Source: Hephaestia caeni | GTDB lineage: Bacteria; Pseudomonadota; Alphaproteobacteria; Sphingomonadales; Sphingomonadaceae | DNA: 64,000 nucleotides | Reading direction: 5' to 3' | Assembly: GCF_003550065.1 (NCBI RefSeq) | Contig: NZ_QXDC01000004.1 | Coordinates: forward strand, 558,001-622,000 | Shown: positions 3,751 to 16,937 of the stretch, one piece after another | Layout: every line of letters starts with the position of its first letter | Numbering within the stretch: the stretch's first letter is position 1 | Translations under genes and position numbers: made by a program | The notes under the pieces: generated by a model | Seen by the model: the letters and a program-made list of their open reading frames with translations, nothing else | Databases searched by the model: none | Told to the model about the DNA's origin: nothing

Positions 3751-3764
3751 ACCACTCCGATGCC

Positions 3765-3794
3765 GTCACCCCGGACTTGTTCCGGGGTGACGGT
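3765..3794. repeat. Palindrome B1 (short family-B element), possible terminator
   Basis: Perfect 11-base arms GTCACCCCGGA and TCCGGGGTGAC around CTTGT, followed by GGTTTT on the plus strand. It lies between two convergent genes and could end transcription of the upstream exported-protein gene. The same arm sequence recurs in the longer family-B elements. Confidence 0.75.
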
Positions 3795-5185: not shown

Positions 5186-5283
5186 CGTTCGTCCCCGGAC
5201 TTGATCCGGGGTTGTCGAAGCACCGTTCTTCTTTGCCCCAGTGCGGAAGCAAGAACGGCCCTTCGACAAGCTCAGGGCGAACG
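5186..5283. repeat. Palindromic element A1
   Basis: About 98 bases with inverted ends CGTTCG...CGAACG. The right inner arm contains CTTCGACAAGCTCAGGG. The left arm also holds a smaller palindrome, CCCCGGACTTGATCCGGGG. It is upstream of queC and fills much of the gene-free stretch 5134-5497. Apart from this element and the hslO terminator nothing else is seen in that stretch. Confidence 0.85.
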
Positions 5284-5365
5284 GGTCAGGTTGAACGCTC
5301 CGTGCCCTAGGAGCCGGACGCGCGAAGCGCAATCTCGATGCGGTGCGCCCTCGCGCCACCCCATA

Positions 5366-8799: not shown

Positions 8800-8901
8800 C
8801 GCAAGGGCCTCCTGATTCAAAAAGCAAAGGACGGCCCGGACGGCCGCCCTGCCGCGCTTCTAGGACTGGCGAGAGGACGGCGCAACACCATCAAAGAACC
8901 C

Positions 8902-8987
8902 GTCACCCCGGACCTGTTCCGGGGTCCAACCCTCCGCGAACGCTATCGCTCGAGGCTCGTTGGATGCCGGAACCAGCCCGGCATGAC
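8902..8987. repeat. Palindromic element B2
   Basis: 86 bases starting GTCACCCCGGACCTGTTCC and ending GCCCGGCATGAC. A closely similar 86-base element (B3) lies at 16825. It sits between argD and the ABC permease stop codon. Confidence 0.83.
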
Positions 8988-8995
8988 GATCGGGT

Positions 8996-10719: not shown

Positions 10720-11403
10720 ATGCACCACCACAAGCGATCGCCGGCGTTTGAGCCACTGACGTGGCGACCTCACCCGCTGCCCGTTCGTCCCCGGACCGGA
10801 TCCGGGGCTGTCGAGACCCCGCTCTTTCTGCGGCGTCGATCGACTCTGGCAAATCGGGATCGCTCCCGCCCCGTTCGTGCTGAGCCTGTCGAAGCACCGT
10901 TTTTCTTCGACCCGGCTCGAAAGGCAGAACGGCCCTTCGACAAGCTCAGAGCCTGCCCCGGACATGATCCGGGGGCGAACGGTTCATGTTCAACACCCGT
11001 CGTCCTGAAAACCGACAGCCGCGGCGCGGTGATCGTCGAGATGGCGCTGGTGCTGCCGCTGCTCGTCACATTGCTGCTCGGGCTGGTCTGCTACGGCCAG
11101 TATTTCCTCATCGCGCACAGCGTTCAGCAGATCGCCAACGACGCCGCGCGCGCGACGATCGGCGGGCTGACCTCCGACGAACGCAGCCGGCTCGCGGTTG
11201 ACGCCGCGGATGCCGCCGCCGCGATCAATCCCGAGATCGATGTCGAGGCGATGCAGGTCGCCGTCCACGAACAGGGCGCGACGATCGCGGTCAGCGTCAC
11301 CGTCGATGCCGGGGCGCGGCTGATCCGGTTTCCGCTGGTGCCGATGCCGTCGTCGCAGATCGCGCGCACCGCCGCGGTGCTGGCGCCGGGGGCCGGGGCA
11401 TGA
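10720..11403 (+). CDS. TadE-like pseudopilin with an in-frame palindromic-element insertion
   Basis: The TadE-like core begins at RGAVIVEMALVLP (residues 101-113), with a membrane helix to about 128 and a small extracytoplasmic domain. These proteins are minor pseudopilins of Tad/Flp pili. The only well-placed start is ATG 10720, with CGGGAGG six bases upstream. Between it and the core the frame stays open through a 200-base composite palindrome (A3, residues about 21-88). No other ATG with a ribosome site lies closer to the core; GTG at 11029 is possible but lacks the usual basic leader. The stop overlaps the next start (ATGA). Confidence 0.75.
   Translation: MHHHKRSPAFEPLTWRPHPLPVRPRTGSGAVETPLFLRRRSTLANRDRSRPVRAEPVEAPFFFDPARKAERPFDKLRACPGHDPGANGSCSTPVVLKTDSRGAVIVEMALVLPLLVTLLLGLVCYGQYFLIAHSVQQIANDAARATIGGLTSDERSRLAVDAADAAAAINPEIDVEAMQVAVHEQGATIAVSVTVDAGARLIRFPLVPMPSSQIARTAAVLAPGAGA
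10782..10981. repeat. Composite palindromic element A3 inside the TadE-like reading frame
   Basis: About 200 bases. The outer ends CGTTCGTCCCCGGA and CCGGGGGCGAACG enclose a second family-A element that begins CGTTCGTGCTGAGCCTGTCG near 10882. It looks like one element placed within another. In the gene's frame the inner copy encodes PVRAEPVEAPFF and RPFDKLR, the same peptides as in element A4. Confidence 0.83.
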
Positions 11404-13043: not shown

Positions 13044-15330
<2,287 letters not shown>

Positions 15331-15363
15331 TTAGCGGGGCGCGGTGCACAGAAGGAGGAGAGG

Positions 15364-16821
15364 ATGCGCCGGATAACGCGCGGTCACCACCCACACCCCG
15401 TTCGTGCTGAGCCTGTCGAAGCACCGTTCTTCCTTGCTCCGGCACGGAAGCAAGGGCGGCCCTTCGACAAGCTCAGGGTGAACGGCTCTCCTTTAAGGCG
15501 CGTCGTTCTGGCAGCCACCCTCGCCGCCATGCTCATGCCCGTCGCCGCGACCGCGCAACAGGCCGCACAGCCGCCCGCCGCCGCCGCCGAAGACACCGCC
15601 ACCCTCGACCAGCGCGCCGCCGATCTCATCCCGCTGCTCAACGGCGGCGGCGACGTGCCCGCGGCGTTCGCGCCCGAATTTCTGGCGCAGGTGAGCGAGC
15701 CGCAATTGCGCGCAACGCTCGCGCAGGTGACGCAGATGCTCGGCCGCGCGGAAAAGGTCGCGACGCTGAGCCCGATCGCCGCGCACGCCGCCGATGCCAC
15801 GGTCGCCTACGAAAAAGGCACGCTCACGCTCAAGTTCGCGGTTCAGCCCGAGGCGCCGCACCGCTTTATCGGCCTGCGCCTCACGGGCACGCAGACCGGC
15901 GAACAATCGATCGACGAGGTCGCGGCCGCGATCCGCGCGCTGCCGGGCAAGACCGGCTTCATCCTCACCCGGCTCGACACCCCCGATGCGCCCCCGATCG
16001 CCGCGATCGAGCCCGATCGGCCGCTCGCGATCGGCTCGGCGTTCAAGCTCGTGATCCTTGCCGAACTGGTGCGCGAGATCGCAGGCGGAAAGCGCCATTG
16101 GGACGATCCGATCACGCTCGACGGCGGCGATCTGCCCGGCGGCTTCTACGCCGACAAGGCCAAGGGCACGATCGCCACGCTGCGCGATCTCGCGACGAAG
16201 ATGATCTCGGTCAGCGACAACAGCGCCACCGATATCCTCCTCCACACGCTCGGGCGCGACAAGGTGGAGGCGATGCTGCCCGTGGTCGGGATCAAGGACC
16301 AGTCGGGGATGCGCCCGTTCCTCTCGACGCTCGATATGTTCAAACTGAAGGGCGTCGACGGCGGCAAACTCGGCGACCAATGGCTGACGCTCGACGACAA
16401 GGGCCGCCGCAAACTGCTCGCGGAGAAAGTCGCCCCGGCGCCGATCGCGGCGATCCCCGCCGGCCTGTTCCAGGACAACAAGCCCAATCGGCTGGGTATC
16501 GAATGGTACGCCAGCCCCGCCGATCTCGCGCGCGTGATGGATTGGCTGCGGCGCCACACCGAAACCGGCCCGGCGGCCGAGGCGCGCCGCATCCTTGGGC
16601 TCAACCCCGGCATCCCCGCCGACACCGCTGCGCATTGGGCCTATGTCGGTTACAAGGGCGGTTCGGAGCCCGGCGTGCTCGACATGACGCTCTTGCTCCA
16701 CGCCAAAAGCGGCGGCTGGTACGCCCTCAGCGGCACGTGGAACAACCCCGACGCCGCGCTCGCCGAAGGCCGCCTGATCGGTCTCATATCGCGCGCGGCG
16801 ATGCTGGCGGCGGAACGGTAA
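15364..16821 (+). CDS. Class A beta-lactamase-like serine hydrolase with in-frame element insertion
   Basis: A 485-residue exported protein. The catalytic motifs of the class A fold are present: SAFK (S225, K228), SDN (284-286) and KGG (431-433). An N-terminal domain (about 75-185) precedes the hydrolase fold, as in ORF12-type esterase/beta-lactamase relatives, so beta-lactam resistance is not implied. The start is ATG 15364 behind AAGGAGG. Residues 12-41 are encoded by palindromic element A4. Only after it comes the signal peptide RRVVLAATLAAMLMPVAATA. The gene lies 33 bases after parE. Confidence 0.85.
   Translation: MRRITRGHHPHPVRAEPVEAPFFLAPARKQGRPFDKLRVNGSPLRRVVLAATLAAMLMPVAATAQQAAQPPAAAAEDTATLDQRAADLIPLLNGGGDVPAAFAPEFLAQVSEPQLRATLAQVTQMLGRAEKVATLSPIAAHAADATVAYEKGTLTLKFAVQPEAPHRFIGLRLTGTQTGEQSIDEVAAAIRALPGKTGFILTRLDTPDAPPIAAIEPDRPLAIGSAFKLVILAELVREIAGGKRHWDDPITLDGGDLPGGFYADKAKGTIATLRDLATKMISVSDNSATDILLHTLGRDKVEAMLPVVGIKDQSGMRPFLSTLDMFKLKGVDGGKLGDQWLTLDDKGRRKLLAEKVAPAPIAAIPAGLFQDNKPNRLGIEWYASPADLARVMDWLRRHTETGPAAEARRILGLNPGIPADTAAHWAYVGYKGGSEPGVLDMTLLLHAKSGGWYALSGTWNNPDAALAEGRLIGLISRAAMLAAER
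15399..15484. repeat. Palindromic element A4 inside the beta-lactamase-like frame
   Basis: 86 bases with ends CGTTCGTGCTGAGCCTGTCG and CGACAAGCTCAGGGTGAACG. It encodes about 30 extra residues between the start codon and the signal peptide of the host gene, without breaking the frame. Confidence 0.87.
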
Positions 16822-16824
16822 TCC

Positions 16825-16910
16825 GTCATGCCGGACTTGTTCCGGCATCCAACCCTCCACGAGCGGTAGCGTTTGAGGCACGTTGGACCCCGGAACAAGT
16901 CCGGGGTGAC
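16825..16910. repeat. Palindromic element B3
   Basis: 86 bases beginning GTCATGCCGGACTTGTTCC and ending GTCCGGGGTGAC, with the same internal CCAACCCTCC block as B2. It lies between the convergent beta-lactamase-like gene and tamB. Confidence 0.83.
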
Positions 16911-16937
16911 GGAAGAAAATTGGCGCACCCCCCGCCC

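Follow-up and report, generated by a model that had tools for sequence, protein, structure and literature searches.

The window, i.e., the whole stretch of 64,000 nt of Hephaestia caeni DNA analysed here (G000:C3:558001-622000), belongs to a genome with 10 contigs and a total of 4,524,961 bases. It contains a gene for a beta-lactamase-like protein with an export signal (Table 1); the upstream neighbour of this gene is a gyrase-B-type gene (13273-15330, Pfam). The product of ORF 15364-16821 matched the Pfam family Beta-lactamase2 (PF13354) with 68.6 bits (cut-off 22) and displays the SAFK, SDN, and KGG motifs. The cut-off of the NCBIfam model bla_class_A was not reached (34.4 bits vs 200), and with a score so far under this cut-off no resistance activity is implied for the protein.

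A REP dimer is located in frame between the start codon, ATG 15364, and the export signal of this protein. The hydropathy maximum, VVLAATLAAMLMPV at residue 47, marks the start of the hydrophobic core of the signal, so that a tail of about 46 residues precedes the core. The 3' limit of the export-signal region (15555) was placed by eye between ATA and QQ. The segment 15390-15495 folds with -54.7 kcal/mol (z -6.0 relative to mononucleotide shuffles). A comparison of the palindromes with Rfam gave sub-threshold matches to AaHKsRNA41 (19-28 bits; gathering score 97); these were located at 15347-15491 and 10880-10949, on both strands of the palindromes.

What the initial annotation had observed at this locus was confirmed. 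The AAGGAGG site that it named in front of ATG 15364 is present. Codons 12-41 (15397-15486), which it assigned to the element, agree to within 1 nt with the limits given by the consensus of the repeat family, and the signal peptide, described as beginning directly behind the element, is separated from it by five residues (SPLRR) before the hydrophobic core. The peptides PVRAEPVEAPFF and RPFDKLR, said to recur in a TadE-like gene, were indeed found in ORF 10720-11403, in the same frame as in the beta-lactamase-like gene.

Table 1. Coordinates in the window of the two genes with an in-frame REP dimer and of their features.
Feature	Position	Strand	Basis
Beta-lactamase-like (PF13354) protein with export signal, 485 aa	15364..16821	+	ORF from ATG 15364
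Shine-Dalgarno (SD) site AAGGAGG of ATG 15364	15352..15358	+	Sequence; duplex -12.2 kcal/mol
REP dimer, 88 nt, two inverted units of ~34 nt, codes for residues 12-41	15398..15485		Consensus of 87 units; repeats D5, D6, I14
REP unit 1, read as PVRAEPVEAPFF	15398..15431	+	Consensus
REP unit 2, inverted, read as GRPFDKLRVNG	15452..15485	-	Consensus
GTG codon within element, judged not to be a start	15478..15480	+	SD pairing -1.5 kcal/mol; GCG in sister species
Export signal: hydrophobic core and presumed cleavage region, residues 47-64	15502..15555	+	Hydropathy
TadE-like gene, 227 aa, same repeat after start codon	10720..11403	+	PF07811 TadE, 42.1 bits
REP dimer in TadE-like gene, frame as in beta-lactamase-like gene	10871..10957 (right end approximate)		Repeats, frame reading

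The anti-SD pairing of ATG 15364 was the strongest among the seven starts computed; 2000 random positions of the window gave a mean of -3.2 kcal/mol (s.d. 2.6). From this ATG to the signal core, GTG 15478 is the only in-frame ATG, GTG, or TTG codon. The tail does not have gene-like codon usage, and the codon-usage caller, which ignores SD sites, starts the beta-lactamase-like gene behind the element (both the caller and the SD scan were custom-made). In the consensus reading, stops are absent in two of the three frames of unit 1 and in all three frames of unit 2, and an open frame through such REP elements is therefore not rare. Judged from the start signals, the REP dimer is probably translated as an N-terminal tail in front of the export signal.

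The REP family in the genome and in the genus

A search with the 14-nt core TTCGACAAGCTCAG, allowing at most one mismatch, yielded 94 matches in the genome, 41 forward and 53 reverse. The backwards-pattern control gave 0 and 1 by strand, i.e., 1 in all of the 4.52-Mb genome. The 94 matches form 63 clusters, 30 of which are inverted pairs in one arrangement. These numbers identify an element family rather than chance matches. The consensus was derived without seven clusters (L049, L050, L055, L056, L060, L063, and L078), each of them a single one-mismatch match; four of the seven lie wholly within called genes. The resulting 87-unit consensus is sharp: CCGTTC-G(CC/TG)CT-GAGC(T/C)TGTCGA-AG(GG/CA)C-CGTTCTT. 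The stem forms among these units are GCCCT/AGGG (34), GTGCT/AGCA (30), the mixed form GCCCT/AGCC (8), and rarer ones. The two main forms change on both sides together, as expected if the hairpin is maintained.

The family is mostly extragenic, like REPs generally. Relative to the codon-usage gene calls, 52 of the 56 retained clusters are located outside genes and four at a gene edge, with none wholly inside. Dispersed copies, paired stem changes, and a position mostly between genes make the repeat a REP in the wide sense.

Nineteen open-frame cases were listed for the REP clusters. Eleven of these were set aside because the called gene on that side is oppositely oriented. When the remaining eight were sorted by hand, five had a usual start after the element (L069, L077, L097, L101, and L102), while three had either no later start or a better-supported start in front, namely the beta-lactamase-like gene, the TadE-like gene, and pbpC (L059). 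An enrichment of REPs before membrane or export segments was considered, and three in-frame cases in the genome are too few to claim it.

A 16-mer of the repeat was present in 175 of the 295 genomes of the genus, with 0 to 138 copies per genome. No match to PF01797 (RAYT/Y1_Tnp transposase) was detected in the window genome; this family was matched in 33 of the 295 genomes, and the two genomes with the highest copy numbers of the 16-mer, G122 (135) and G123 (138), are not among these 33. With PF01797 absent from the genome and no evident genus-wide link to copy number, an origin of the repeat from a RAYT was discarded. The accessible text of Di Nocera et al. (2013; PMC3733652) states that CGTC REPs have no dedicated transposase; no Y1_Tnp-type match was obtained in the window genome. 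On plasmids, the element peptide was encoded in 9 of 72,556 records, all from Sphingobium; the gene table, which is incomplete, lists no gene under the best match in any of the nine.

A second palindrome family (CCGTCA...CTTGT...) was also observed in the window, at 16822-16913 directly 3' of the beta-lactamase-like gene, at 8900-8988, and at 3763-3788. By eye it resembles the CGTC REPs of the literature, and at 5213-5315 as well as within 10783-10975 pieces of it seem to be merged with the first family.

Orthologues with and without the element

The beta-lactamase-like protein was matched in 157 of the 295 genomes. N-termini were examined for 81 loci (weak or partial matches L046-L048 were excluded; genome G265 was counted twice), and the core was searched for, with up to two mismatches, in the open frame and the 30 nt preceding it. 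Three loci carried the repeat: those of the window genome, of G248, which appears to be Hephaestia sp. MAHUQ-44, and of genome G010 (L043). No copy was found in the other 78 N-termini, which confirms that orthologues without the segment of residues 12-41 exist. In L043, a distant orthologue on the reverse strand, a REP pair follows a presumed signal peptide (MMGLALAAAVFASS...), precedes the enzyme domain, and is read in another frame (PFVLSLSKH...ASTSSARTE). If the enzyme is exported by this presumed signal, the REP pair there is translated.

The closest orthologue found was that of the sister species Hephaestia sp. MAHUQ-44 (locus L131, whose sequence before the gene is identical to that of G248; 85% protein identity). 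It carries the element at the identical position, where the frame is open and the 105 nt compared show no indel relative to the window. The sister has in-frame ATG codons before the element and no ATG, GTG, or TTG from the element to the signal core; the codon at GTG 15478 is GCG. The SD pairing of its upstream ATGs is weak (-3.8 and -3.3 kcal/mol), and MAFFT does not align them with ATG 15364. A start codon common to both species gained no support, since only 12 of the first 21 bases agree when ATG is set against ATG. The strong SD site of the beta-lactamase-like gene is not seen in the sister. A long GC-rich hairpin was noticed there between the gyrase-B-type and the beta-lactamase-like genes (L131, ~2590-2660); it is absent in the window.

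Between the two species, omega was 0.20 for the mature part of the beta-lactamase-like protein (402 codons) and 0.66 for the element part (35 codons), where changes were distributed 5/9/6 by codon position. If the element is older than the species split, the value of 0.20 indicates that the gene has been under constraint with the element in place. For this gene, selection on the peptide encoded by the element was rejected, the value of 0.66 being near neutral. The element-coded peptide thus looks like a weakly constrained, tolerated spacer.

The TadE-like gene provides a presence/absence pair. Its orthologue in the sister (L135) encodes 139 aa vs 227 aa here, and no repeat core occurs near its start, i.e., the site is empty. 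The SD site and start codon are identical in both species (GGGAGGCATRTC-ATG; -10.3 kcal/mol each), and from this shared ATG the frame runs into the TadE domain in both. A plain global alignment of the start regions gave 140 identical positions in 216 columns. One GTG is present between the element and the membrane core in the window gene, which leaves a small chance of a later start there.

The PBP1C-type gene pbpC (896-3115 of L059, reverse strand; G000:C2 near 986900) was observed to carry the same REP dimer. Its product displays the Pfam domains Transgly, Transpeptidase, and BiPBP_C. In the window genome, the REP is located between a GTG overlapping the stop codon of an upstream alpha-2-macroglobulin-type gene and the membrane anchor; pbpC of the sister species also has the element, with a 3-nt gap behind it. 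At E 1e-60, pbpC was matched in 150 of the 295 genomes. One hundred of these matches were inspected at the junction, and the upstream stop could be placed in 95. The repeat was found between this stop and the membrane anchor in 12 of the 95 orthologues, with the frame open in 10. In six of these 10, including the window genome, no ATG, GTG, or TTG occurs from the repeat to the anchor. The sole in-frame start after the upstream gene is located wholly before the element in three of the six (L187, L189, and L214); in L156 (the window genome), L159, and L167, further starts are found at the start of the element or within its first unit. If ATG, GTG, and TTG are the sole start types, the membrane-anchored product of these genes contains most of the element.

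A tree of 40 pbpC orthologues, seven of them with the repeat, requires at least three changes. Three changes may correspond to one gain and two losses, which falls short of proof for repeated insertion. Of 83 orthologues searched at the pbpC junction for palindromes of any kind, 36 had one (shuffled control, 1), 17 of them with an open frame; many of these palindromes have a usable start behind them or at their end. As clean coding cases of other palindrome families in the pbpC tail, L147 and L182 were discarded because the palindrome holds a start codon in its last bases, as was L172, in which a start codon lies in the palindrome interior. Between the sister species, omega of pbpC was 0.24 for the element (30 codons) vs 0.13 for the body (500 codons). 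The arms of the repeat are alike everywhere, and the element value is for this reason weak evidence of selection.

Proposed origin and fate of the N-terminal tail

The explanation we prefer, with a probability of about 0.8, is that a REP dimer was inserted behind the start codon, left the frame open, and is read through, the resulting tail being tolerated before the export signal. A dimer of a family dispersed in sphingomonad genomes would have landed a few codons after the start of the beta-lactamase-like gene. Since the element occupies one site in both species, this insertion would most simply have occurred before their split, in the common ancestor of the window strain and Hephaestia sp. 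MAHUQ-44. With the frame left open, ribosomes coming from the SD site and ATG 15364 would read through the element, and the product would gain its tail of ~46 residues ahead of the hydrophobic core. The sequence of the tail would be under little selection, with the enzyme behind it remaining constrained. Such a tail may be tolerated, given that n-regions and N-terminal tails are of variable length. REP dimers would insert mostly between genes, and an insertion in the early codons would be tolerated if the frame stays open; where the N-terminus is a mere tail before an export or membrane segment, ~30 extra residues would do little harm. The element and its family, the open frame, the site shared with the sister, the orthologues lacking the repeat, and the empty TadE site are visible in the sequences themselves; read-through, normal export, and the route of insertion are what we infer. 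The suggestion of the initial annotation that a long N-terminal tail is tolerated at such sites gains support from the empty TadE site of the sister, from pbpC, and from the weak constraint on the element peptide.

The element could also be a 5' untranslated REP, with translation beginning at GTG 15478 or at an atypical codon close to SPLRR, and with the frame in front open by chance. We regard this as unlikely. It would be in line with the position of the retained clusters, none of which is wholly inside a called gene, with the usual start after the element in five of the eight open same-strand cases, with the pattern of changes in the element between the sisters (5/9/6, omega 0.66), and with the weak SD sites at the upstream starts of the sister. 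However, GTG 15478 has an SD pairing of only -1.5 kcal/mol and corresponds to GCG in the sister, where no ATG, GTG, or TTG is found from the element to the core. The SD site of ATG 15364 is the strongest of those computed, and in the TadE-like gene the SD site and ATG known from the element-free orthologue are located in front of the element; both points argue against an untranslated repeat.

That the insertion harmed export and the gene is decaying, its product being cytoplasmic or the gene itself a dying relic, appears improbable. The mature part shows an omega of 0.20 between two element-bearing species, no stop is present, and the signal core and the SAFK, SDN, and KGG motifs are kept in both, although the ~46 residues before the core are by eye much more than in the other orthologues listed and the sister has weak SD sites alone. 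Very improbable, in our estimation, is the opposite fate, in which the element-coded tail was taken into use (for instance in slower export or contact with a partner) and its amino acids are kept by selection. The open frame in 10 of the 12 pbpC orthologues carrying the repeat and the pbpC element omega of 0.24 would agree with such a role, but the arms in pbpC may seem conserved merely because all copies of the repeat are alike, and the element of the beta-lactamase-like gene has an omega of 0.66 without an excess of third-position changes.

Relation to known palindromic elements

Insertion of REPs and other palindromes in ORFs, N-termini included, has already been published, and the gene in the window is a well-supported new example. 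According to the accessible text of Di Nocera et al. (2013; PMC3733652), REPs of the GTAG and CGTC superfamilies occur in ORFs, at the NH2 terminus more than at the end, and dimers or groups of REPs within ORFs add 20-30 residues. The same text notes that many N-terminal REPs in ORFs may be extragenic because translation may start downstream, and that most 5'-end cases in three species are perhaps not coding. It also cites the expression of Rickettsia conorii proteins with an N-terminal RPE-1. The window repeat shares with these REPs the short hairpins, inverted dimers, dispersed and mostly intergenic copies, and the presence of some copies in ORFs and NH2 termini, in sphingomonads. In contrast to both superfamilies, its unit begins with CCGTTC and neither tag is found in the consensus: no GTAG tag occurs at either end of the 87-unit consensus (CCGTTC ... 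CGTTCTT), and, by the definition given in the accessible text of PMC3733652, no CGTC, TGTC, or CCTC tag precedes an AT-starting stem of 8-9 bp, the stem being preceded by GTTC and having the foot G(CC/TG)CT with AG(GG/CA)C. With regard to the 4-5 nt loop, the prevalence of inverted dimers, and the missing dedicated transposase of CGTC REPs, we observed the loop C(T/C)TGT (consensus reading), 30 inverted pairs among 63 clusters, and no Y1_Tnp match; other palindromes have such traits also, which makes them not decisive.

The parallel with Rickettsia palindromic elements (RPE) drawn in the initial annotation holds for the type of event, the element here being a REP dimer of sphingomonads. As described in the accessible parts of PMC3733652 and of the review PMC2229807, which covers RPE as well as fusions of Yersinia palindromes with signal peptides, RPE are likewise palindromes located in frame in protein genes, with N-terminal cases. 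By these descriptions they are set apart as rickettsial elements of 105-146 bp, whereas the window element has 88 nt and belongs to the Sphingomonadaceae. As to the RPE trait of a translated palindrome, the frame is open here and the start-codon evidence is favourable, as far as sequence alone can tell. The Yersinia YPAL/RU-2 fusions, as presented in the accessible part of PMC2229807, also join a mobile palindrome, in frame, to a protein for which a signal peptide is predicted; there, however, the signal peptide of a putative new protein is partly made up of the repeat, while the repeat in the window precedes the signal of a gene with many orthologues.

Unlike in the 5'-end cases described in the accessible text of PMC3733652, coding is favoured here by the start codons and by the genome of the sister, and there is more comparative evidence for predicted coding than is presented for the N-terminal cases in the accessible parts of PMC3733652 and PMC2229807. 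Open-licence PMC full text yielded no recognised description of the window repeat or of palindromes in PBP1C tails beyond the general papers cited, and the accessible part of PMC4741004 held nothing on such repeats.

We suggest, tentatively and with considerable doubt, that in sphingomonads the short tail connecting the start codon with the first membrane or export segment recurrently serves as a niche in which REP dimers land and become coding. PBP1C would be the prime case, with at least six of the examined orthologues, from several lineages, in which the translated repeat would make up the larger part of the cytoplasmic tail; some such tails may have been co-opted.

REP-type repeats are commonly regarded as extragenic, and cases at the N-termini of ORFs are suspected of being start-codon errors. 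With TadE providing an empty site, the beta-lactamase-like gene a site common to two species, and pbpC a site of recurrence, the question of coding becomes testable. These genes offer an example of how a repeat may lengthen the region before an export signal while the gene is retained, and they have a bearing on the annotation of start codons in sphingomonads.
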